A DNA stretch of 64,000 nt. Source: Melaminivora jejuensis. GTDB taxonomy: Bacteria > Pseudomonadota > Gammaproteobacteria > Burkholderiales > Burkholderiaceae_C. Position numbers and translations under genes: made by a program. The notes beneath the pieces are model-generated. The model was not told where the DNA came from. It did no database searches and saw nothing but the letters and a program-made list of their open reading frames with translations. The DNA is taken from assembly GCF_017811175.1 (NCBI RefSeq), contig NZ_JACWIJ010000002.1, positions 1,426,001-1,490,000 on the forward strand. Direction: 5' to 3'. This document shows, piece after piece, positions 3,859 to 47,620 of the stretch; the stretch's first letter is position 1, and each line of letters begins with the position of its first letter.

Positions 3859-4005
3859 GGGGGGAAGTCCTGGGCCAGCGGCCTCACCGCCTGCCCCCCG
3901 CCAGGCCGCCGGCAGCGCCGGCACGCAACTGCACAAAAAACAGGCAACGCCCAACAAACCCAGATAAATCAATTACTTGCATGGATGATTCAACACTTCC
4001 AGGGA

Positions 4006-4042
4006 CTTATCCACAGGCCTTTCCAATGCCGGTGGGGATAAG
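4006..4042. promoter_or_regulatory. Palindrome with two inverted DnaA-box-like sites upstream of the P-II gene
   Basis: The top strand has TTATCCACA (4007-4015), a perfect DnaA-box consensus match. The bottom strand has TTATCCCCA (4033-4041), one base off. Together they make an inverted repeat (CTTATCC ... GGATAAG) in the divergent intergenic region. The pattern is seen directly; a DnaA role is inference. Confidence 0.4.
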
Positions 4043-4064
4043 CCAGGGCGCGACATGCGCATAA

Positions 4065-4442
<378 letters not shown>

Positions 4443-4469
4443 CGTCAGTTCCGCCACCCTGCGGCACTA

Positions 4470-4522
4470 TTTAATTGATAGCTGCAAGCGCTTGATGGAC
4501 AACGGTTTCAGCCGGTTTTAGT
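4470..4522 (+). repeat. Dispersed ATAGCTG repeat, copy 2
   Basis: Begins about 30 bases after the P-II stop: TTGATAGCTGCAAGCGCTTG followed by the degenerate second half ending in GCCGGTTTTAG. Confidence 0.75.
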
Positions 4523-4524
4523 GT

Positions 4525-5175
4525 TTATTTCACCGCCTGTTCAGGGCCGGCCAGGCAGCCAGCCCCGGCGCGGCGCAGCAACTCGGCGGTCTCGAACAGC
4601 GGCAGGCCCATGATGCCCGAGTAGCTGCCCTCGATGCGCTCGATATGCGCCGCAGCATGGCCCTGGATGCCATAGGCGCCGGCCTTGCCCAGCGGCTCGC
4701 CAGTGGCGACGTAGGCTGCTATCTGCGCCGGCGTCAGGGCGGCAAAGCACACCTGCGAGACCGACAGCGCAGCCAGCCTGCGGCCATCGGGCAGCGCCAG
4801 GGCCACAGCTGTGAGCACCTGATGCCGGCGCCCGACCAGCAGGGCCAGGATGCGCGCGGCGTCATCCGCATCCTCGGGCTTGCCCAGGATCAGCGCATCC
4901 AGGGCCACGGTGGTGTCGGCGCACAGGATGGGCGCCACCGGCAGCGCCCGGCGCCGGTGGCGGGCCACGGCGGCGTCCAGCTTGAGGGCCGTGACGCGCT
5001 GCACGTAGTCGGCAGGCAGCTCCTGCGGCAGCACAGCCTCGATGGCCTCGGCATCCTCGGGCGCATCACCTGCGGCGTTGGCCAGCAGCAGTTCGTGGCG
5101 CACGCCGATCTGCTCCAGCAGCTGGCTGCGGCGCGGGCTTTGCGAGGCGAGGTAGAGAAAATCCAGCTTTTTCAT
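4525..5175 (-). CDS. maf: Maf-family nucleotide pyrophosphatase
   Basis: House-cleaning enzyme that hydrolyses nucleoside triphosphates (dTTP/UTP or modified pyrimidines, depending on subgroup) to monophosphate and pyrophosphate. The 216-residue protein opens with the Maf signature [16 protein letters not shown]. It also has [18 protein letters not shown], with the catalytic Asp, and [14 protein letters not shown], the conserved C-terminal substrate-loop region. It follows rlmH on the minus strand with a dispersed repeat between. Ribonuclease G, commonly next in relatives, is not here; glnB on the opposite strand follows instead. Confidence 0.92.
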
Positions 5176-5177
5176 GA

Positions 5178-5232
5178 TGAAAACAGCCGCAAACCCTTGC
5201 CCAGCAAGCGCTGACAGCTATCAATCTTGAGA
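5178..5232 (-). repeat. Dispersed ATAGCTG repeat, copy 3
   Basis: Reads on the minus strand as TTGATAGCTGTCAGCGCTTG, followed by CTGGGCAAGGGTTTGCGGC, and abuts the maf start codon. It lies in the rlmH-maf gap, in the direction of transcription. Confidence 0.78.
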
Positions 5233-5282
5233 ATGAACACAGGCTGGCGCAGACGCCCTGCCGGGCCTACGAGCCTACGGGC

Positions 5283-5762
5283 TTACTCGCGGTGGTAGGG
5301 GTGGCCGGCGTTGACCGACCAGGCGCGGTAGAGCTGCTCGATCAGCAGCACGCGCACCATGGCGTGCGGCAGCGTCAGGTCAGACAGGCGGATGCGCTCG
5401 TGCGCGGCCTGGCGAAAGGCCGGCTGCAGGCCGTCCGGGCCGCCGATGACCAGGGCCACGTCGTCGCCCTGCCATTGCCAGCCCTGCAGCCGCTCGGCCA
5501 AAGCCTTGGTCGTCAGGCTGGTGCCGCGCTCGTCCAGCGCCACGATGCGCGCGCCGCGCCCGGCGCCCGAGGCGATGGCCGCCTCGATGCGCTCGCGCTC
5601 GGCGGCATGGAGCGTCTCCAGCGACTTGGAGCCGCGCGGCTCGGTCTTGACGGCGCGCAGCTCGACCTTGAGCTCGGGCGGGAAGCGCTTGGCATAGTCC
5701 TCGTAGGCCGTGGCGGCCCACTCGGGCACGCGCTGGCCGACGGCGACGATCAGCAGCTTCAT
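5283..5762 (-). CDS. rlmH: 23S rRNA (pseudouridine-1915-N3) methyltransferase
   Basis: SPOUT-class enzyme that methylates pseudouridine 1915 in helix 69 of 23S rRNA using S-adenosylmethionine. The 159 residues match the family's usual length. The knot region is clear: [33 protein letters not shown] and the C-terminal GHPYHRE. The start [10 protein letters not shown] is typical. It lies about 36 bases downstream of rsfS on the same strand, the standard gene pair in proteobacteria, so the two are probably cotranscribed as ribosome-maturation genes. Confidence 0.97.
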
Positions 5763-5798
5763 GGTGGCGGTTGTGGCTCAGCGCCGCGCCCGGGCCGC

Positions 5799-6746
5799 TC
5801 AGGCCTTGCGTGCGGCGGCCCGGGCCGTGGTCTTGGTGGCGGCCTTTTTGGCAGGCGTCTTGGCGGCCGTCCTGGTCGCCGTTTTTGCGGCGGTCTTGGC
5901 GGCCGTCCTGGCCGGGGCCTTCTTGGCTGCCGGCTCGTTGACGACCACGGTCTTGACGGCTGCCGGCTTGGCTGCCGGCCTCTTCACTGCCGATTTCCCT
6001 GCGGCGCTGGCCGGCGCCTCGGCCTTGGCTGCGCCAGCGCCGGTCTTTCGGGCGGCGGGCTTTTTCGCTGCGGGGGATGGGCTGTCGGCAGCAGTCTTGG
6101 CAGCGGTTTTGCGGGGAGCGGCACTCTTGCGGCTGGGCGTGCGGGCCGGGGCCGGCGCCACGTCTGCCCCACTCACCGCCGCCTCGGCCTGCGCTGTATC
6201 CGCAGTTTCGGGCTGCTGTGCGCCATCCGCCGCTTCGGCAGACACCTGGGCAGCCGCCTTGGCCGGGGCGGCCTTGCGCGCCGCCTTCCTGGCGGCAGGT
6301 TTGGCGGGCTGCTCTGCCGAAGCATCCTCGGACGCCATGGTCTTGCGCGGCTTGGCGGCGCCCAGTTTCAGGCGCACGGGCTTTTCGCCCCAGATTTCCT
6401 CCAGCCGGTAGTACTGGCGGATAGCCGGCTGCATGATGTGTACCACCGCCTGGCCGCAGTCCACGATGATCCACTCGCCGTTTTCCTCGCCCTCGGTGCG
6501 GGGCTTGGCAAAGCCGGCTTCGCGCACGGCGTCGCGCACGCTGGCGGCCAGCGCCTTGGTCTGGCGGTTGGACGAGCCGGTGGCCACCATGACGCGCTCG
6601 AACAGCGGCGACAGGTGCTCGGTGTCAAAGACCTGGATGTCCTGCGCCTTGACGTCCTCCAGGCCATCGACGATGGCGCGCTGGAGTTTGGTGACGTCGC
6701 GCTTGGCGGCGGTTGCCGATTTTTCCGACTTGGGAGATGTGCTCAT
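5799..6746 (-). CDS. rsfS: Ribosome silencing factor RsfS with long Ala/Lys/Pro-rich C-terminal tail
   Basis: RsfS binds ribosomal protein uL14 and blocks joining of the subunits when nutrients are scarce. The conserved core is about residues 18-125 of 315, with VVATGSSNRQTKALA-type and EWIIVDCGQAVVHIMQP segments followed by RQYYRLEEIWG. The remaining roughly 190 residues are low-complexity, with repeated AAKTAAKT, KPAARK and PAAKKAPA blocks resembling histone H1-like or AlgP tails. Ordinary RsfS proteins are about 105-130 residues. The ATG at 6746 is used because the upstream in-frame sequence is proline-rich and unconserved. No frameshift explains the tail: it stays in frame to the TGA beside rlmH. 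Confidence 0.9.
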   Translation of the reverse strand: MSTSPKSEKSATAAKRDVTKLQRAIVDGLEDVKAQDIQVFDTEHLSPLFERVMVATGSSNRQTKALAASVRDAVREAGFAKPRTEGEENGEWIIVDCGQAVVHIMQPAIRQYYRLEEIWGEKPVRLKLGAAKPRKTMASEDASAEQPAKPAARKAARKAAPAKAAAQVSAEAADGAQQPETADTAQAEAAVSGADVAPAPARTPSRKSAAPRKTAAKTAADSPSPAAKKPAARKTGAGAAKAEAPASAAGKSAVKRPAAKPAAVKTVVVNEPAAKKAPARTAAKTAAKTATRTAAKTPAKKAATKTTARAAARKA

Positions 6747-6850
6747 CGGGCGTGGAGGTGTGTGGGGGATGATGGGTGGCACTATAGCCATGCGGGTGGC
6801 GGGCGGCTGTAGTCGGCATCCTGCAGAGGCAGGGCGTCAGAAGTGGGCGC

Positions 6851-7804
6851 TCAAAGCCAGTCGCGCCGCACCAGAAAGCGCGTGGTCAACTCGGCCTCGG
6901 GCGTGCCGGGCGGGTCTTCGCGACGATAGCTCCAGCCGGCCAGCGGCGGCATGGACAGCAAGATGGATTCGGTGCGCCCGCCCGACTGCAGGCCGAAGTG
7001 CGTGCCCCGATCCCAGACCAGGTTGAATTCGACGTAGCGGCTGCGCCGGTAGAGCTGGAAATCGCGCTCGCGCGCGCCAAAGGGCGTGTCCAGGCGCCGC
7101 TGCACGATGGGCAGGTAGGCGTCCAGAAAGGCGTCCCCCACGCTTTGCGTCAGGGCCAGGCTGCGCGCAAAGCCCAGCTCGGAAAAATCGTCGAAGAAGA
7201 TGCCGCCCACGCCGCGCTGCTCATCACGGTGCTTGAGATAGAAATACTCGTCGCACCACTGCTTGAAGCGCGGGTACAGGTCGGCTCCGAAGGGCGCCAG
7301 GGCGTCCCGGCAGGCGCGGTGGAAATGCACGGCGTCGTCCTCGAAGCCGTAGTAGGGCGTCAAATCCATGCCGCCGCCAAACCAGCACACCGGCTCGCCG
7401 CCCGGCTGCCCGGCGGCGATCATGCGCACGTTCATATGTACCGTAGGCACATAGGGGTTGCGCGGGTGGAAGACCAGCGACACGCCCATGGCCTCGAACG
7501 GGGCGCCGGCCAGCTCGGGCCGGTGCTGTGTGGCCGAGGGCGGCAGCTGCGGCCCGCTGACGTGCGAGAAGCCGCAGCCGGCGCGCTCGAACACGCGCCC
7601 GCCCTCCAGGATGCGCGTGATGCCCTCGCCTTGCAGCGGGGACTCGGGCGGGCGCTGCCAGGGGTCGCTGCGAAAGCGCGCGCCGCCCTGCTGCGCCGGG
7701 CCTTCGACGGCCTCCAGGGCATCGGTGATGCGTGCCTGCAACTGCTGCAGGTAGCCGCGCACCTGGGCCACGGCGGGGTTGGCGGCGAGGATGGAGGAAG
7801 CCAT
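6851..7804 (-). CDS. hemF: Oxygen-dependent coproporphyrinogen III oxidase
   Basis: Aerobic haem-pathway enzyme that decarboxylates two propionates of coproporphyrinogen III to vinyl groups, giving protoporphyrinogen IX. The 317-residue protein has [49 protein letters not shown] and [14 protein letters not shown], all hallmarks of the family. The ATG at 7804 overlaps the purD stop codon (TGATG), indicating translational coupling. Downstream there are only 104 bases before rsfS. The nadD gene that often lies here in relatives is absent. Confidence 0.97.
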
Positions 7805-39126: not shown

Positions 39127-40764
39127 TCACGAAGCAGCATCCGGCAGCGCCGCAGCCGCCACGAGCTGCCGGGTATAGGCCTGGCGCGGCGCGCGCAGCA
39201 CCTGTGCCACCGGGCCGGACTCCACCACCGCGCCATCCTTCATGACCAGCACCTCGTGTGCTATGGCCGCCACCACGGCCACGTCGTGTGTGATGAGTAG
39301 ATAGGACAGGCCGCGCTCGCGCTGCAAGCGCTGCAGCAGCGCCAGCACCTGCTGCTGGATGGTCACGTCCAGCGCACTGGTCGGCTCGTCGAGCACCAGC
39401 AGCTGCGGCTGCACGATGAGGGCGCGGGCAATGGCCAGGCGCTGGCGCTGGCCACCGGAAAACTCGTGCGGGTAGCGATCGAGCAGGCCGGGGAACTGGG
39501 CTTCGGTCAGGCCAACCTCGGCCAGCATGGCGGCCACGCGCGCGCGTTGCGCCTGGGGCGCCAGTTGCGGCTCGTGTACGCGCAGGCCCTCGCCGACGAT
39601 CTGGGCCACCGTCAGGCGCGGCGACAGCGAGGAAAACGGATCCTGAAACACCACCTGCACCCGCCGGCGCAGCACCTGGTTGTGTGCGCTGTTGCGCTGC
39701 GCGGGCTGCTGCCAGGCCTGGCCGGCCACCGCCAGCTCGCCCCGGCTGGGCAGCAGGCCCAGCAGCGCCTGCGCCAGCGTGGACTTGCCCGAGCCCGACT
39801 CGCCCACCACGCCCAGAGTGCGGCCCTGCGGCAGGGAGAAGGCCGCGTCGCGCACAGCGACGAACTCGCCGCGCGCAAACCAGCCGCGCACGCCCGGCAG
39901 CGCCACCGGATAGGCCACGCGCAGGCCCTGCGCCCGGGCCGCCGGCACCCCGGGCGGCAGGGGCGCATCGAGCACATCGCGCTGCGGCGCACTGTGGATC
40001 AGCCGGCGCGTATAGGCGTGCTGCGGCGCGGCAAAGACCTGCGCCACCGCGCCCTGCTCGACCAGATGGCCGTGCTCCATGACGGCCACGCGGTCGGCAA
40101 AGCGGCGCACCAATTGCAGGTCATGGGTGATGAGCAGCACCGCCATGCCGGTCTGGCGCTGCAGATCGGACAGCAGCTCAAGGATCTGCCCACGCAGCGT
40201 GACATCCAGCGCCGTGGTCGGCTCGTCGGCCAGCAGCAGGCGCGGGCGGCTGGCCAGCGCCATGGCGATCATGGCGCGCTGGCGCTGCCCGCCCGAGAGC
40301 TGATGCGGAAAGCTTTGCGCGCGCCGCGCTGGCTCGGGGATGCCCGTTATCGCTAGCAATTCAATAGCTGCTTGCGCTGACTGGGAGCGGCTCAGCGCCT
40401 GTTTCAGCACCAAAACCTCGGCCACTTGATCACCCACGCTCATGAGCGGGTTGAGCGCCGTCATGGGCTCCTGGAAGATCATGGCGATATCGCCGCCGCG
40501 CACGCCGCGCAGTTCGCGCTCGGGCAGGGCCAGCAGGTCGCCACGCCCCTGCAGCAGCGCCCGGCCCTGCACCTGGGCGTCGCCCGCCAGGCGCAGCAGC
40601 GCCAGCGCCGTGACCGTCTTGCCTGAGCCGGACTCGCCGACCAGGGCAAGTTTTTCGCCGGTGCGGATGTCCAGGCTCACGCCATGCACCACCGGCTTGG
40701 CGCCAAAGGCCACGCGCAAGTCCTGCACCTGCAGCAGGGGCTGGTCGTTTGCAATAGCAGTCAT
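39127..40764 (-). CDS. yejF: Dual-ATPase subunit of a YejABEF-type peptide ABC importer
   Basis: Powers uptake through YejB/YejE. The 545 residues contain two complete nucleotide-binding domains. NBD1 has [31 protein letters not shown] and [15 protein letters not shown]2 has [32 protein letters not shown] and [12 protein letters not shown]. Its first base pairs overlap the yejE stop (ATGA). In E. coli and Rhizobium YejABEF takes up microcin C and peptides; that function here is inferred. Bases 40354-40416, inside NBD1, resemble the dispersed intergenic repeat although the protein is not longer than E. coli YejF there. Confidence 0.94.
40354..40416 (+). repeat. Dispersed ATAGCTG repeat, copy 9, inside yejF coding sequence
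   Basis: AATTCAATAGCTGCTTGCGC, then TGACTGGGAGCGGC and TCAGCGCCTGTTTC. Read antisense, it encodes part of NBD1 between [12 protein letters not shown] and TGIPEPARR. Confidence 0.5.
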
Positions 40765-41819
40765 TGAGCGGCCTTACGCGGGTCGAGCGCGTCGCGCAGT
40801 GCGTCGCCCATGAAGGTGAGCAGCAGCAGCGTGCCGACCAGCACGGCAAAGGTGGACAGCGAAATCCACCAGGCATCGATGTTGTTCTTGCCCTGGCTGA
40901 GCAATTCCCCCAGGCTGGGCGTGCCCGGCGGCACCCCAAGGCCGAGAAAATCCAGCGAAGTCAGCGCCAGGATGGCCGCGCCCATGCGAAATGGCAGAAA
41001 AGTCACCACCGGCACCATGCTGTTGGGCAGGATGTGGCGCCAGATGAGGGGGCCGTTGGTCACTCCCAGCGCGCGCGCCGCCTTCACGTAGTCGAGCTGG
41101 CGGTTGCGCAAGAACTCGGCGCGCACGTAGTCCGACAAGCCCATCCAGCCAAACAGCGACAGCAGCACCAGCAGCAGCGCCAGGCTGGGCGCGAACACCG
41201 CGCTGAAGATGATGAGCAGGTACAGCTCGGGCATGGAGCCCCAGATTTCGATGAAGCGCTGGAAGGCCAAGTCCACCTTGCCGCCAAAAAAGCCCTGCAC
41301 CGCGCCCGCCGCCACCCCCAGCACCACGCCCACTGCCGTCAGCGCCAGGGCAAACAGCACGCTGACGCGAAAGCCGTAGATCAGCTGCGCCAGCATGTCG
41401 CGGCCCCGGTCGTCCGTGCCCAGCCAGTTCTCGCGCGAGGGCGGCGCGGGATTGGGTTCGGTGGCGAAGTAGTTCAGCGTGCCGGCGCCATAGCGGTTGG
41501 GCGGATACAGCGCCCAGTTGCCGCCTTCGGTGATGCGCTGGCGCACGAAGGGGTCGAGGTAGTCGGCGGGCGTGGGGAAGTCGCCGCCGAAGGTGGTCTC
41601 GGGGTAGTCGCGCAGCAGCGGGAAGTAGAACTCGCCGCCATAGCGCACGACCAGGGGCCGGTCGTTGCTCAGCAGCTCGGCGGCAAGGCTGAGCAGCACC
41701 AGGGTGCAAAACAGCACCAGGCTCCACAGGCCCAGGCGGTTGCGCTTGAAGCGCTGCCAGGCGCGGCGGCGCGGGGAGGCACTGGAGGCGGCAGGCCGTG
41801 GGGCGAATTCAGCGGGCAT
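40761..41819 (-). CDS. yejE: Permease subunit of YejABEF-type importer
   Basis: Inner-membrane subunit of the binding-protein-dependent transport family. Of its 352 residues, the first helix is about 30-55 (WSLVLFCTLVLLSLAAELLS). A long periplasmic segment (EFYFPLLRDYPETTFGGDF) typical of YejE follows, then five helices. The ATPase-contacting EAA-like loop is near DYVKAARALGVTNGPLIWRHILPN. The ATG at 41819 overlaps the end of hepT by 11 bases, so the transporter gene is translationally tied to the toxin gene in front of it. Its stop overlaps the yejF start. Confidence 0.93.
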   Translation of the reverse strand: MPAEFAPRPAASSASPRRRAWQRFKRNRLGLWSLVLFCTLVLLSLAAELLSNDRPLVVRYGGEFYFPLLRDYPETTFGGDFPTPADYLDPFVRQRITEGGNWALYPPNRYGAGTLNYFATEPNPAPPSRENWLGTDDRGRDMLAQLIYGFRVSVLFALALTAVGVVLGVAAGAVQGFFGGKVDLAFQRFIEIWGSMPELYLLIIFSAVFAPSLALLLVLLSLFGWMGLSDYVRAEFLRNRQLDYVKAARALGVTNGPLIWRHILPNSMVPVVTFLPFRMGAAILALTSLDFLGLGVPPGTPSLGELLSQGKNNIDAWWISLSTFAVLVGTLLLLTFMGDALRDALDPRKAAQ

Positions 41820-42225
41820 CGCGCAGCAAAAGGGTCTGGCTGTAGCGCAGAAAGCCATCCAGATGGGTTTTGATGATGGCCACCGTGATGGGCAGTTGCA
41901 GCTTTTGATAATCATGCACGGCGATGTTGCGAAAGCCGACCATGCGCGGCAACTCCTCGGCCAGCCCTGGCGTGATCGCCTCTGCCCGTGCCAGCAGGGC
42001 AAACACATCGCGGTCGCTCTGCGGCACGCCCAGGCGGTCACGGCGCACCAGGTGCTGACCCATGTCCAGCGCAGCTTCGCAGGCACGCTGGATGTTCAGG
42101 ATGGCAGCATCCTGGCGCGTGAAGTCGGTAGCAAAACTGTCCGGGTCACGAAAGTATTCTTCGCGGGCGCGCGCCACACAGCGCTCTATGGTGGCAGCCT
42201 TGTTGAGCAATACGTCGTCAGCCAT
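41809..42225 (-). CDS. hepT: HepT-like RNase toxin (DUF86)
   Basis: Toxin of the MntA/HepT module: a HEPN RNase that is silenced when the antitoxin adds AMP groups to a tyrosine. The 138-residue protein has the active-site motif RX4HXY intact as RNIAVHDY. N-terminal helices match the family (NKAATIERCVARAREEYF), and AAILNIQRACEAALDMGQHL is also typical. The ATG at 42225 overlaps the antitoxin gene by eight bases. Its end overlaps yejE. The context, within a transporter operon, is unusual. Confidence 0.92.
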   Translation of the reverse strand: MADDVLLNKAATIERCVARAREEYFRDPDSFATDFTRQDAAILNIQRACEAALDMGQHLVRRDRLGVPQSDRDVFALLARAEAITPGLAEELPRMVGFRNIAVHDYQKLQLPITVAIIKTHLDGFLRYSQTLLLRDAR

Positions 42226-42637
42226 AGACCTGTCCGCTTCGCAGGATGCCTTCGAGTAGCCCGGAGCGTGCCGCATCGAGATCAGTCTTTTGACTCAGGA
42301 TGGCCGCCTCATACAGAGCAGCCTGACTGTCGCGCGCCCACCAGCGCTGGCCCCGGGTCACGATCTGGTATTGCATGACGGTGGAAGCGGCGCGCAAATC
42401 CAGCAAATCCACGGCAACCCCGGCGACGTCAGCCAGTTCACCGGCCAGATCCCACAGGATCAGGGGATCGGCGTAGCCCTCGACCAGAACAGCCATGTCC
42501 AGGTCGCTGTCGGGTCGAGCGCCCCCCTGCACACGGCTGCCGAAGCCGTACACCCCCAACAGCCCCGGCAGCCTTTGCTGCACCAAAGCGATCAGCCGCG
42601 CTGTCAGGCTCTTGTCCATGGTCGTTGCTTCGTCCAC
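42218..42637 (-). CDS. mntA: MntA-like minimal nucleotidyltransferase antitoxin
   Basis: Antitoxin that transfers AMP from ATP to HepT. The 139-residue protein has the defining GSX10DXD motif in GFGSRVQGGARPDSDLD, with a third acidic residue in VDLLDLRAA. A GTG at 42637 is five bases behind GAGGAG, so it is preferred to the ATG at 42619. It begins nine bases after yejB and overlaps hepT. The order antitoxin then toxin is as in Shewanella MntA-HepT. Confidence 0.92.
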   Translation of the reverse strand: MDEATTMDKSLTARLIALVQQRLPGLLGVYGFGSRVQGGARPDSDLDMAVLVEGYADPLILWDLAGELADVAGVAVDLLDLRAASTVMQYQIVTRGQRWWARDSQAALYEAAILSQKTDLDAARSGLLEGILRSGQVYG

Positions 42638-42646
42638 CTCTTCTCC

Positions 42647-43693
42647 TCAATCAAACTTGACCCGCGGATCGACCCACACGTAACACAGGTCGGAGATCAG
42701 CTTGGTCACCAGCCCGATCAGCGTGAACAGGAACAAAGTGCCCAGCACGACCGGATAGTCGCGCCGGATCACGCTCTCGTAGCTCAGCAGGCCCAGGCCG
42801 TCGAGCGAGAACAGCGTCTCGATCAGGAGCGAGCCGGCGAAGAATGCGCCGATGAAGGCCGACGGAAAGCCGGTCACGATGGGGATCAGGGCGTTGCGAA
42901 AGACATGGCGATACAGCACCTGGCGCTCGGTGAGCCCTTTGGCGCGCGCCGTCAGCACGTACTGCTTGCGGATTTCCTCCAGGAAAGCGTTCTTGGTCAG
43001 CATGGCGGTGACGGCAAAGCTGCCCGCGACCATGGCCGTCACCGGCAGCGCGATGTGCCACAGGTAGTCCACGATGCGCGCGCCCCACGACAGCTCCTCC
43101 CAGTTGGCCGAGGTCAGGCCGCGCAGCGGAAACCATTGGAGCTGCCCGCCAAAAATCACCAGCAGCGCCACGCCCAGCACAAAGCCCGGGATGGCATAGC
43201 CCACCAGGATGATGAGCGTGGTGATGAAGTCGAAGCGCGAGCCGGCGCGCACCGCCTTGGCCACGCCCAGCGGCACGGCAACCAGGTAGCTGATCAAAAA
43301 TGTCCACAGGCCCAGGCTGATGGACACGGGCAACTTCTCCTTGATGAGCTGCCACACGTCCTTGTTCTGGAAGAAGCTGCGCCCCAGGTCGAAGCGCGCG
43401 AACTGGCCCAGCATCTGGATGAAGCGCTCGTGCGCCGGCTTGTCGAAGCCGTAGAGCTGCTTGATCTGCGCCAGGCGCTGCGGATCGACGCCCTGCGCGC
43501 CCCGGTAGGCCATGCCGCCGCCCTCGCCGGCGCCGCCCCCTGCTCCGCCCGCCCCCATGCCGGCCTTGGCCTCGGCCAGATACTGCTCCACCGGCCCGCC
43601 GGGCACGAACTGGATGACGACGAAAGTCAGCAGCAGCACGCCCAGCAGCGTGGGCAGCATGAGCAGCAGGCGCTTGAGGATATAGGCAGGCAT
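42647..43693 (-). CDS. yejB: Permease subunit of YejABEF-type importer
   Basis: Second transmembrane subunit, 348 residues. The first helix is KRLLLMLPTLLGVLLLTFVV, followed by the family FVPGGPVEQYLAEAKAG. A Gly-rich insert (residues about 48-65) follows, then the periplasmic YGFDKPAHERFIQMLGQFARF segment. Five further helices end at DPRVKFD. The ATPase-contact loop is VLTARAKGLTERQVLYRHVF. Only four bases separate it from higA upstream and nine from mntA downstream, so it is sandwiched between two toxin-antitoxin modules. Confidence 0.94.
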   Translation of the reverse strand: MPAYILKRLLLMLPTLLGVLLLTFVVIQFVPGGPVEQYLAEAKAGMGAGGAGGGAGEGGGMAYRGAQGVDPQRLAQIKQLYGFDKPAHERFIQMLGQFARFDLGRSFFQNKDVWQLIKEKLPVSISLGLWTFLISYLVAVPLGVAKAVRAGSRFDFITTLIILVGYAIPGFVLGVALLVIFGGQLQWFPLRGLTSANWEELSWGARIVDYLWHIALPVTAMVAGSFAVTAMLTKNAFLEEIRKQYVLTARAKGLTERQVLYRHVFRNALIPIVTGFPSAFIGAFFAGSLLIETLFSLDGLGLLSYESVIRRDYPVVLGTLFLFTLIGLVTKLISDLCYVWVDPRVKFD

Positions 43694-43697
43694 GGCG

Positions 43698-44006
43698 TCA
43701 GATCATCGGGGCGGGTTGCACCTGCAGGAGACTGTCCTTGAAGCGCTGGGCAGCCTGCCACATGTCGTAGGCGCTTTGCTCGGCCAGCCACAGACGCGCA
43801 TCACCGCCACGCTCCAGGCCCAGCCAGGCCTGCAGGCGCAGTGCCATCTCGGGGGAAATGGCAGCACGGCCATTGAGCACGCGCGACAGGGCCACACGCG
43901 ACACGTCCAGTTGCTGGGCCGCCTGCGTCACCGTCAGGCCCAGGGCAGGCAGCACGTCATCGCGCAGGGTCAGGCCGGGGTGGGGCGGGGCGAACATGGA
44001 GGTCAT
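43698..44006 (-). CDS. higA: HigA-family antitoxin
   Basis: Helix-turn-helix antitoxin that neutralises HigB and represses its own promoter in characterised systems. The 102-residue protein starts with PPHPGLTLRDDVLPALG, the HigA N-terminal signature. The XRE helix-turn-helix is LTVTQAAQQLDVSRVALSRVLNG, shown here by its parts: TQAAQQLDVS and RVALSRVLNG. It starts 13 bases after higB. Four bases downstream lies yejB, so HigA autoregulation would be expected to influence yejBEF unless another promoter intervenes. Confidence 0.94.
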   Translation of the reverse strand: MTSMFAPPHPGLTLRDDVLPALGLTVTQAAQQLDVSRVALSRVLNGRAAISPEMALRLQAWLGLERGGDARLWLAEQSAYDMWQAAQRFKDSLLQVQPAPMI

Positions 44007-44019
44007 GGGTCTGCTCCTC

Positions 44020-44298
44020 TCAGTGGTAATCCTGGTAATCCACCAATATGGCGTCCACTCCGTCGAAAAGGAAAGTCATGCGCCAATTGCCATTGACGGT
44101 CACCGACCAGTGTCCGGCAAGATCGCCCTGCAGGCTGTGCAGCCTCCAGCCCGGCAGATTCATGTCCTGGGGCTGCGCTGCTTGATCCAGGCGTGCCAGT
44201 TGACGTGCCAACCTGGGGGCGTGCGACGCCTGAATGCCAGCCTTGCTGCCGTGTTCGAAGAACGCCTGCAGGCCCTTGTGACGGAAAGACTTGATCAC
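44020..44298 (-). CDS. higB: HigB-family toxin (RelE superfamily, ribosome-dependent mRNA interferase)
   Basis: Cleaves mRNA on translating ribosomes in characterised members. From a GTG at 44298 it has 92 residues, the standard length. Strong family markers are VIKSFRHKGLQAFFEHGSKA, LDQAAQPQDMNLPGWRLH, GHWSVTVNGNWRMTF and the C-terminal ILVDYQDYH. An open frame continues upstream to 44340 but runs through a palindrome that is probably the operator, so the shorter start is preferred. It is followed by higA in the usual toxin-first order. Confidence 0.93.
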   Translation of the reverse strand: MIKSFRHKGLQAFFEHGSKAGIQASHAPRLARQLARLDQAAQPQDMNLPGWRLHSLQGDLAGHWSVTVNGNWRMTFLFDGVDAILVDYQDYH

Positions 44299-44303
44299 AG
44301 GTG

Positions 44304-44325
44304 ATTGTATCCCCACGCGATACAA
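44304..44325 (-). promoter_or_regulatory. Probable HigA operator and -10 element for higBA
   Basis: Perfect inverted repeat TTGTATC ... GATACAA with a 7-base spacer ends six bases before the higB GTG. The minus strand also reads TACAAT at 44304-44309, a good -10. Position and symmetry fit a HigA autoregulatory site; no binding data. Confidence 0.6.
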
Positions 44326-44346
44326 ACAGGAGTCTTTCACTCGATC

Positions 44347-44808
44347 TCACACCCAGCGCCGCACCCGCCGCCGGTAGTCCTCATAGGCCGCCCCGAAGCG
44401 CCCGGCCAGCGCGTGCTCCTCGGGCACGATCTGAAAGCGCGTGATGTAGCCGACGAACGCCGCCAGCGCCAGCAACGCTGCGGCGTTGCCCAGCCACAGG
44501 CACCAGGCCAGCAGGATCAGCGCCATGCCCAGGTACATGGGGTTGCGCGTGAAGCGGTACGGCCCGGCGATCACCAGACTGCCGGCGCGCGCCGGTGCCA
44601 GCGGGTTGACCGTAGTGCGCTGGCGACGGAAGTTCCACAGGCTCCAGCCATCAAGCGCCGCGCCCGCCAGCAGGCACAGCACAGCCAGCGGCAAGCGCAG
44701 GGCAAAGTCCAGCCGCGCCGCCGGCCAGGCGCCATCGAGCGCCCAGGCCAGCAGCGCGCACAGCAGGCCGATCAGCGGCGGGGGGATGCGGTGCTCCAGC
44801 AGTTTCAT
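44347..44808 (-). CDS. Isoprenylcysteine carboxyl methyltransferase-like membrane protein
   Basis: Small integral membrane protein, 153 residues, four to five helices. The ICMT/PEMT-family C-terminal signature is complete: AGPYRFTRNPMYLGMALILL, then VPEEHALAGRFGAAYEDYRRRVRRW. Bacterial members methylate varied lipidic or small substrates, mostly unknown, so no substrate is assigned. It stands between yejA and higBA on the same strand, 48 bases before higB. It is not part of Yej systems elsewhere as far as I know, so it probably arrived with, or before, the higBA insertion. Confidence 0.86.
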   Translation of the reverse strand: MKLLEHRIPPPLIGLLCALLAWALDGAWPAARLDFALRLPLAVLCLLAGAALDGWSLWNFRRQRTTVNPLAPARAGSLVIAGPYRFTRNPMYLGMALILLAWCLWLGNAAALLALAAFVGYITRFQIVPEEHALAGRFGAAYEDYRRRVRRWV

Positions 44809-44842
44809 GCGGATGGTGGCGTGTTGCAGGTCATGAAATATT

Positions 44843-44898
44843 GGTCAAAATGGCTGTAAACCCAATGCAGTCAAGCGCTGACAGCTATCATTTTTTTG
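44843..44898 (-). repeat. Dispersed ATAGCTG repeat, copy 10
   Basis: Minus strand: ATGATAGCTGTCAGCGCTTG, then ACTGCATTGGGTTTACAGCC. It overlaps the last codons of yejA and lies in the yejA-methyltransferase gap. Confidence 0.78.
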
Positions 44899-46716
44899 CC
44901 CACCAGGTTTCCACCGCCCACATCTCGCCGGGCGAATATGGCGGCACCGCTTCGGGTCGGGCCAGGCGCCAGGCGTTGTAGGCCATGCGGTGCGTGCCGG
45001 CTGACCACTGCGGGATCAGGTAGTGCTCGTGGGCAATGATGCGTTCCAGCGCATGGCAGGCGGGCAGCATCTGCCCAAGCGTCCGGGCGCTGACCATGGC
45101 ATTGATGGCTGCATCCACCGCCGGATTCTTCACGCCGGGGAAGTTGCCCGAATCCTCCTGATCGGCCGCCGCGCTGCCGAACAGGTCGGCAAACTCCTGC
45201 CCCGGGTTGTTCGTGCCCTGGTAGGCGATTGTTGTGATGTCGAAGTCGAACTTCTGCAGCCGCTGCTGGTACAGCGCAAAGTCCACCGAGCGGAACCTCA
45301 AGGTGATGCCCAGCTTTTGCAGGTTGTGCAGCCACGACGACAGCGTGCGCATTCCGCCCTCGCTGCTGTCCATGTACTCCAGCACCAGCGCCTGGCCCTG
45401 GGCGTTGCGCAGCAGCCCGCCCTCGCCCACCTGCCAGCCGGCATCCTTGAGCAGACCTTGCGCGCGGCGCAGATTGGCGCGCAGTTCGGCGGCGTCCTGC
45501 GGCTCGGGCGGCACGAACATGGGGCCGAAGACGCTGGCCGGCAACTGCGCGCGGTACGGCGCCAGCAGCGCCAGCTCCTCGGGCGTGGGCACGCCGCGGG
45601 TTTCGCACATCGTATTGCCGAACAGGCCATGCACGCGCTGATAGGCGCCGTAGAACAGGCGCCGGCTCAGCCACTCGAAATCGAACGCCAGGCCCAGCGC
45701 CTCGCGCACGCGCCGATCCTGCAAGAAAGGCCGGCGCGTGTTCAGCACATAGCTCTGGAAGCCCGAGGGCAGCCGGTTGGCGAATTCGCCCTTGACCAGC
45801 TCGCCGCTGTCGAACTTCCTGCCGTTGACGCGCCGCGCCCAGTCGCCGGCGCTGAAAAAGCGCATCAGGTCGAACTCGCCCGCCTTGAGCGCCTCCAGCC
45901 GCGCCGTGCTGTCCTTGTAGATCTTGACCAGCACCCGGTCGAAGTTGGCCGTGCCCCGGCGCACCGGCAGGTCGCGCGCCCAGTACCCGGGGTCGCGCAC
46001 ATAGGTGATGTCCTTGCCGAAGTTGACCGGCCCGATGCGGTACGGCCCGCTGCCGATGGGCACGTCCATGACCACCTGATCAAAGGGCTTGGGCTGGCCG
46101 GCCTCGTCCAGCCCCCAGTCGCGGCTGAACACCGGCAAGCCGCCCACAGTGAGCGGCAGCTCGCGGTTGGGCTTGTGGAAGCGGTAGCGCACGCTGCGCG
46201 CGTCCAGCACATCGACGCCGGCCACCTCGATCAGCAGCGTCTTGTAGCCGGGTGAGGTGTGCGGGCCGACCAGCGTGTCGAAACTGTGCTTGACGTCCTG
46301 CGCCGTGACCGGCTTGCCGTTGTGAAAGCGCGCCTCGGGGCGCAGGCGGAAAGTGGCCGACAGGCCGTCCGGCGCCACGCTCACGTCCTCGGCCAGCAGG
46401 CCGTAGCCGGTGGCGGTCTCATCGAGCGAGCCGGCCAGCAGCGTGTCGAACATCAGCGCCGCCAGGTAGGCCGGCGCGCTGCCGCGAATGGTGAAGGGTT
46501 GTACTTGTCGAAAGTGGAGGTGCGCAGGTTGCTGACCAAGCGCAACTCGCCGCCCTTGGGCGCCTGCGGGTTGACATAGGGCAGGTGCGTGAAGTCGGCC
46601 GGCAGCGCCGGATCGCCCCACAGGGCATAGGCGTGCGCGGCCAGCGCAGCGGGGCTGGCCAGGGCCAGGCACAGGGAGACGGGCAAGGAGAGGGCGCGGG
46701 TCAGCCAGGAGCACAT
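44888..46716 (-). CDS. yejA: Periplasmic peptide-binding protein of YejABEF-type importer (apparent frameshift at 46496-46498)
   Basis: Substrate-binding lipid-free periplasmic protein, SBP_bac_5 family. From the ATG at 46716 a signal peptide ([20 protein letters not shown]) is followed by [20 protein letters not shown] and [20 protein letters not shown]. There the literal frame breaks: one extra C in the CCC of AACCCTTCACC gives [20 protein letters not shown] and runs to 44888. The corrected length is 609 residues, normal for YejA. Later segments include [20 protein letters not shown] and [18 protein letters not shown]. It is first gene of the transporter operon, and divergent from fabI. Confidence 0.92.
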
Positions 46717-46819
46717 GCGACAATTCTGCCCCACTGCAGCAGCGCGTTTTTCGCGCTGTTTTGCTGTCAACCTCCTTGTCAATCGGCCCTTGCGCCATCG
46801 TTTTTCAGAAAGCACCACC

Positions 46820-47620
46820 ATGGGTTTCCTCGCCGGCAAGAAGCTGCTCGTCACGGGCGTTTTGTCCAACCGCTCCATCGCCTACGGCATCGCCCGCGCC
46901 TGCCACGAGCAGGGGGCGGAGCTGGCCTTCAGCTATGTCGGCGAACGTTTCAAAGGGCGCATCACCGAGTTTGCCGCCGAGTTCGGCTCTGAGCTGGTCT
47001 TTGACTGCGACGTGGCCGAGGACGCGCAGATCGAGCGCATGATGGCCGGCCTGCACGAGGCCTGGGGGACGTTCGACGGCTTCGTGCATAGCATCGGCTT
47101 TGCGCCGCGCGAGGCCATTGCCGGCAACTTCCTCGATGGCCTGAGCCGCGAGGCTTTCCGCGTCGCGCACGACATCAGCGCCTACAGCTTCCCGGCCATG
47201 GCCAAGGCGGCCCTGCCGCACCTGAACGACAAGTCCGCGCTGCTGACGCTGTCGTACCTGGGCGCGCTGCGCTCGATACCCAACTACAACACCATGGGCC
47301 TGGCCAAGGCCAGCCTGGAGGCGTCCGTGCGCTATCTCGCCGAAGCCGTGGGCCGCACCGAGGACGGGCGCGCCATCCGCGTCAACGGCATTTCCGCCGG
47401 CCCCATCAAGACGCTGGCCGCCAGCGGCATCAAGGACTTCGGCAAGCTGCTGGGCCGCGTGGCCGACGCCGCCCCGCTGCGCCGCAACGTGACCATCGAG
47501 GACGTGGGCAACGTCGCCGCCTTCTTGCTGTCCAACCTCGCCAGCGGCGTGACGGCGGAGATCACCTATGTCGATGGCGGCTTCAGCCAGACGGCCGGGC
47601 TGTCGGCGGATCAGGTCTGA
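46820..47620 (+). CDS. fabI: Enoyl-[acyl-carrier-protein] reductase (NADH)
   Basis: Last step of each fatty-acid elongation cycle. The 266-residue SDR protein has the FabI version of the cofactor motif ([17 protein letters not shown]) and the active-site region [19 protein letters not shown] with Tyr-X6-Lys. It also has [17 protein letters not shown]. The ATG at 46820 follows an in-frame extension that is antisense to yejA's leader and is not FabI-like. It is not preceded by other fab genes. Confidence 0.97.

Follow-up and report, generated by a model that had tools for sequence, protein, structure and literature searches.

Predicted toxin–antitoxin modules recur at the border between yejB and yejE in predicted importer operons of Comamonadaceae and their kin

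The insertion of toxin–antitoxin (TA) genes between the genes of one operon is already known. Cases from Escherichia coli and Salmonella, as given in one review, comprise relA-mazEF-mazG, dinB-yafNO-yafP, parDE in relA-mazG, and ccd between folA and apaH (PMC7167474). Here, an arrangement of this type is described in a 64,000-nucleotide stretch of Melaminivora jejuensis (assembly GCF_017811175.1, contig NZ_JACWIJ010000002.1, forward-strand positions 1,426,001 to 1,490,000), referred to below as the window. On its minus strand, an operon resembling those of the YejABEF importers holds two TA modules: mntA-hepT between the permease genes yejB and yejE, and higBA between yejA and yejB. Among related yej operons the yejB/yejE border is a recurrent TA site and HigBA at the yejA/yejB border is rare, so that the two borders are unequal. 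The window is probably one filled copy of this recurrent site, and the sequences suggest that cassettes there have been swapped in place and that their expression would go along with that of yejE-yejF.

The census of yej loci combined sets of 80 and 151, from which 14 with identical yejB were removed and to which 19 were added, giving 236 distinct loci; 223 of these were scored, yejE not being on the stretch in the other 13. Six scored loci come from other families and the rest from Comamonadaceae, the family of the near named relatives of the window YejB, or close kin. YejB matches entered the census from the 150 listed, with a few others including that of genome G113; G297 (contig end), G010, G018 and G042 were left out. 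TA seeds were taken from the inserts for each kind and the loci were searched by tblastn.

An earlier, sequence-only reading of the window had proposed comparing yej loci across Comamonadaceae. This comparison finds complete predicted TA modules at the yejB/yejE border in 24 of the 223 loci, amounting to 27 modules in 11 genera, all read in the operon direction. Phd-VapC accounts for 14 modules, MntA-HepT for eight, a kind labelled RHH-PIN2 (the PIN2 kind) for four and one labelled RHHb-PINb (the PINb kind) for one. The L137 Phd-VapC pair was identified by scanning (PF02604, PF01850 and TIGR01552) and the other 13 pairs by tblastn, and the toxins of the two minor PIN kinds match PF01850. Modules are stacked two deep in three loci, with Phd-VapC then MntA-HepT in G324 and G394 and Phd-VapC then the PIN2 kind in G311. 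TA remnants lie beside yejE in five loci (L075, L160, L163, L165 and L256); five of the 63 TA genes examined are of unexpected length, namely four remnants and the L147 toxin. In 188 of the 223 loci the border holds no recognised insert. In L138, a long inverted repeat resembling a small mobile element lies at about 4315–4555, between the stacked Phd-VapC and MntA-HepT.

Inserts of at least 450 bases occur at yejB/yejE in 32 of 223 loci, 25 of them with TA genes (one being the remnant L075), at yejA/yejB in 22 of 225 (two with TA genes) and at yejE/yejF in four of 218 (none with TA genes). The TA share among large inserts differs between the first two borders with a Fisher p of 8e-7, a value that ignores the shared ancestry of the loci. 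A control permease pair, a small control of 30 loci from which three without the partner permease were dropped, has no insert of at least 450 bases in 27 borders. The sequence-only reading, in which modules entered at two different borders, is to be amended in that the borders are unequal: yejB/yejE is filled recurrently, while HigBA at yejA/yejB occurs in two of 225 loci and in a single genome of the genus.

An explanation to which a little under an even chance is given holds that yejB/yejE is a tolerated landing spot, at which small co-directional inserts cause little damage and selfish TA modules persist; the overlap with yejE would then merely reflect tight packing, with no tie to transport. 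It is consistent with other inserts at this border, including a DUF2127 membrane-protein gene on the opposite strand in seven loci (L022, L040, L124, L148, L179 and L197, all scored, and L019) and an acetyl-CoA hydrolase/transferase gene ahead of TA genes or a TA remnant in four (L075, L123, L155 and L200). The remnants, which represent TA loss without yej loss, also agree with it, and the review takes the same view of the TA pairs found within relA-mazG and dinB-yafP (PMC7167474). It accounts less readily for the preponderance of TA genes among the large inserts, all of these in the operon direction, for the lack of TA genes at yejE/yejF in 218 loci, and for an ATG overlap that arises with unrelated toxins and at three lengths.

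This overlap would link the modules to the importer. The yejE ATG overlaps the stop codon of the upstream gene in 18 of the 24 filled loci, where that gene is the last toxin, versus 25 of the 188 empty ones, where it is yejB. Its length is −11 or −8 in most MntA-HepT loci, −4 in most Phd-VapC loci and −8 in most of the PIN2 kind. Because the toxin stop overlaps the yejE start in most filled loci, the TA cassettes would be expressed with yejE-yejF, and translation of yejE may depend on that of the toxin. Some modules also carry palindromes in their leaders. TGGACA-N15/16-TGTCCA is present in 11 of 14 Phd leaders, in none of the 188 empty borders and in three of 2800 shuffles, and an exact TTGTCAT-N7-ATGACAA is present in two of four PIN2 leaders. 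Phd-VapC, PIN2 and HigBA modules may therefore, to judge from such motifs, introduce into the operon a promoter under TA control; no palindrome was seen by eye in the MntA leaders.

In the window, the yejB/yejE border is occupied by the following features:

42218..42637, minus strand: mntA antitoxin gene with a GTG start and the GSX10DXD motif (NF047752, 94.7 bits, cut-off 60)
41809..42225, minus strand: hepT toxin gene with the RX4HXY motif (NF047751, 151.9 bits, cut-off 60)
41809..41819, minus strand: end of hepT and start of yejE, an 11-base overlap (ATGCCCGCTGA)

Both family models are thus above cut-off and both type VII motifs are present; their integrity, claimed from the letters alone, holds, with RNIAVHDY as the HepT RX4HXY and GSRVQGGARPDSDLD as the MntA GSX10DXD. 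In type VII systems the RNase toxicity of HepT is blocked when its tyrosine is adenylylated. Five genomes of the genus were compared (G000–G004, G000 being the 3.75 Mb window genome). The pair lies between yejB and yejE in all four that are testable (G000, G001, G003 and G004), the overlap being equally long in G001, G003 and G004. In G002 the contig stops 55 bases past yejB, and HepT was not found elsewhere in that genome. From these sequences mntA-hepT is a resident module of the genus, and chance or artefact was dismissed as its origin. In G001, yejB-mntA-hepT-yejE-yejF remain together though yejA is on another contig. A mobile-element source was rejected for HepT and yej-type VapC, whose nearest plasmid relatives are less than 60% identical, and a scan of viral contigs with HepT confirmed no relative.

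The nine best VapC matches in 250 family genomes are all at yej, and among the next VapC loci 20 with clean frames and the interrupted L303 have no adjacent YejB or YejE; an order-wide VapC search matched three of 300 genomes at 1e-28, none adjoining yejB or yejE. Of 28 HepT matches, the best four lie at yej and the remaining 24 do not. The PIN2 search gave 16 matches in 15 of 250 genomes, with that in G238 at yej and that in G050 about 2 kb downstream of yejF. In L335 (8493–9166) a PIN2-kind pair lies about 2 kb downstream of yejF, outside the operon.

Evidence for exchange comes from Phd-VapC, in which the identity of VapC shows no relation to that of the flanking genes (rho −0.004 over 91 pairs, compared with 0.79 for YejB versus YejE). 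In one genus (G185, G395 and G268) YejB and YejE are 96–97% identical and VapC 57–64%. Nonsynonymous (dN) and synonymous (dS) divergence in this genus are 0.53–0.70 and 0.93–1.25 for VapC codons 1–90 and 0.07–0.09 and 0.44–0.53 from codon 91 on, and YejB dS is 0.28–0.36. In the pair L138 and L146, TA dS is lower than YejB dS. The central Phd-VapC block rejects this genus as a clade (approximately unbiased, AU, p 0.00016) and also a second genus (0.0004), a third not being rejected (0.11); the ends of Phd-VapC reject no genus, and YejB+YejE supports the first at 100/99. It is likely, on these comparisons, that the central part of Phd-VapC has been exchanged between lineages and that the flanking genes follow the genus.

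These results bear on an alternative in which a single ancestral entry of each TA kind into yej was followed by inheritance and frequent loss, with no exchange. The yej-resident MntA sequences form one clade (75/78), a single clade is not rejected for HepT (AU 0.33) or VapC (0.18), MntA-HepT identity tracks the flanks (rho 0.69, 28 pairs), and the remnants attest to loss. Simple inheritance is at odds, however, with the independence of Phd-VapC from its flanks, with the rejection of two genera as clades by the central block, with a VapC dS near 1 in codons 1–90 where that of YejB is about 0.3, and with a TA dS below that of YejB in L138 and L146. This alternative is regarded as unlikely.

In the favoured reading of in-place exchange, each TA kind would have come into the operon on one or a few occasions and would later have moved between yej loci by recombination in conserved ends, the left end consisting of the operator and the antitoxin N-terminus and the right end of the toxin C-terminus and yejE. 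The toxin end would supply the yejE start codon, so that careless deletion of a cassette would damage yejE; because the toxin end carries this start, the operon would tend to keep its cassette. It is likely that the importer holds the TA module in place, rather than the TA module the importer. A further step, put forward tentatively and with distinctly less confidence than exchange itself, is that yejB/yejE is a dedicated exchange site, at which fixed-end cassettes swap their toxin–antitoxin recognition core between species by homologous recombination with the importer start codon as anchor. The left end would comprise the operator and the DNA-binding half of the antitoxin, and the right end the toxin C-terminus, joined to yejE through the overlap. 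If true, chromosomal TA modules would owe their movement and persistence to an importer start codon that looks essential.

Several points weigh against the favoured reading. When TTG is also counted as a start, the overlap is present in 21 of 24 filled and 86 of 188 empty borders, and the L147 toxin lacks the usual stop and continues into the yejE region. A scan for sigma-70-like sites found none. The Fisher tests ignore shared ancestry, and the minimum number of changes on the yej tree is 15 for TA presence, 11 for Phd-VapC, five for MntA-HepT and two for the PIN2 kind. The fit of MntA-HepT to its flanks is fairly good, and the case for exchange is therefore weaker for this kind. Codons 45 and 90 were picked as limits of the block once the identity profile had been seen, and constraint can also explain conserved cassette ends. 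Locus L341 (G113) was included through a VapC search match; without it the count is 23 of 222. All 24 filled loci are among 148 of the scored loci and none of the other 75, which come from named relatives, is filled, probably because the filled genera are absent from that list. Finally, the genes upstream of the PIN toxin in the two minor kinds, given a putative RHH label, have no match among the Pfam and NCBIfam models.

The second module of the window, at the yejA/yejB border, comprises the following:

44305..44325, minus strand: inverted repeat TTGTATC-N7-GATACAA with an overlapping TACAAT directly upstream of higB, a predicted HigA operator/promoter
44020..44298, minus strand: higB toxin gene with a GTG start (PF05015, E 7e-21)
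43698..44006, minus strand: higA antitoxin gene (TIGR02607, 88.7 bits, cut-off 47.7)

The toxin gene, HigB-like by PF05015, comes first and is followed by HigA (TIGR02607), as in type II HigBA modules. A HigB relative located elsewhere, in L368, has identical repeat arms and spacing upstream. TACAAT is found within 25 bases of higB in ten of 20 loci, the window among them; the sigma-70 scan found no site. Of the yej loci compared only the window and G394 have HigBA at this border (58% and 42% identical), and within the genus higBA is at the yej operon in G000 only. The closest relative of HigB in 150 family genomes, at 76% identity, does not lie at yej. Plasmid relatives of HigB are up to 73% identical and those of HepT and yej-type VapC fall below 60%, so that HigBA is the only one for which a plasmid pool is plausible. 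By its sequence context higBA is a newcomer to the operon, one gene upstream of the resident mntA-hepT and with its own predicted operator, none being seen for mntA-hepT. The sequence-only reading had named a one-strain insertion with a broken yej as grounds for its own refutation. That description half applies to HigBA, found in one strain of the genus beside a broken yejA, and not to MntA-HepT; strict one-strain insertion was retained for higBA within the genus and dismissed for mntA-hepT.

The remaining genes of the operon are:

44888..46716, minus strand: yejA, solute-binding protein, in two frames broken near 46495 (PF00496 on the 3′ 528 residues)
44347..44808, minus strand: PEMT-like methyltransferase gene between yejA and yejB (PF04191, E 5e-13)
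42647..43693, minus strand: yejB permease gene (NF011712, 451.9 bits, above the cut-off of 445)
40761..41819, minus strand: yejE permease gene (PF00528 and PF12911; NF011596, 409 bits, below the cut-off of 439)
39127..40764, minus strand: yejF ATPase gene with two ABC_tran stretches (NF011713, 590 bits, below the cut-off of 834)

The order yejA, methyltransferase, higB, higA, yejB, mntA, hepT, yejE, yejF read from the letters agrees with the sequence and the family models, and so do the spacings (higA-yejB 4, yejB-mntA 9, mntA-hepT −8, hepT-yejE −11 and yejE-yejF −4). Two unrelated, co-directional and tightly packed TA modules are indeed present at two different borders, with mntA-hepT overlapping yejE in a layout kept in the genus. 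GC content at third codon positions is 0.73–0.74 for higB, mntA and hepT versus 0.86–0.91 for the yej genes. A scan found no terminator-like sites between the window genes; five were found inside or outside genes, compared with 4.6 expected. The methyltransferase occupies the yejA/yejB position in 11 of 225 loci and is found there in G000, G002, G003 and G004. In L412 (G001) and L117, yejA and a methyltransferase relative are on a separate contig, away from yejB-mntA-hepT-yejE-yejF.

The N-terminal part of yejA runs from 46716, with a signal peptide, to STFDKYNP and a stop at 46453, and the remaining 528 residues lie in another frame at 44888–46474, the switch being near 46495. The sequence-only reading placed yejA correctly and overlooked this break. 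The gene is unbroken across the corresponding point in G002, G003 and G004, and the break may be either a real mutation or a sequencing error. A fabI-like gene (enoyl-ACP reductase, assigned by eye) lies divergently from yejA on the plus strand at 46715–47620, the 5′ ends overlapping. In L177 (G382), a stretch without yejE, an island at 3893–7328 behind yejB contains a modification-methylase-like gene and genes that by eye resemble HEPN and MNT types.

The sequence-only reading had further suggested that the modules could fix the importer in the genome, or couple the uptake of peptides or microcin C to control by the toxin. The overlap and tight spacing would couple expression, the HigBA, Phd-VapC and PIN2 palindromes could put downstream yej genes under TA feedback, and YejABEF is reported to import microcin C in E. 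coli. A lock is not supported, given the 188 of 223 loci without a recognised insert, the five remnants, whose persistence beside yejE indicates that TA loss is tolerated, and the broken yejA of the window; moreover, at a threshold of E 1e-100 YejB is without a match in 154 of the 399 family genomes. YejE and YejF do not reach the cut-offs set by NCBIfam for its microcin C transporter models, so the designation 'microcin importer' rests on homology. This explanation as a whole is considered very unlikely.

The yejB/yejE border offers a natural test bed for how TA modules move, being small, fixed in the chromosome and found in nature in many allelic states (empty, filled, stacked or decayed) whose junctions can be compared base by base. 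Any coupling to the importer, itself non-essential, is open to tests in laboratory hosts. The locus also cautions that genes within one operon need not have a common function. No description of TA genes in yej operons was found in one collection of openly licensed papers, which does not establish their absence in print; what looks new at yejB/yejE is the density of the modules, their stacking, the start-codon overlap and the exchange in place.

The window resembles YejABEF importers in having yejA, yejB, yejE and yejF in the same order on one strand, and differs in that these genes are not adjacent, YejE and YejF fall below the microcin C models and the yejA frame is broken. Its mntA-hepT pair resembles type VII MntA-HepT (HEPN/MNT; PMC7641770) in its above-cut-off models, its GSX10DXD and RX4HXY motifs, its antitoxin-first order and its overlapping genes. 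It differs from that system in being embedded between two permease genes, in overlapping yejE and in that the 9 bases separating it from yejB leave no space for its own promoter. Like the TA pairs in E. coli and Salmonella operons, the yej modules lie between two genes of an unrelated operon, vary among strains and share one site that holds different elements (PMC7167474). Unlike those cases, the yejB/yejE border carries TA modules of four kinds across 11 genera, with stacking in some loci, the toxin stop overlaps the start of the next gene, and the TA core shows signs of in-place exchange.

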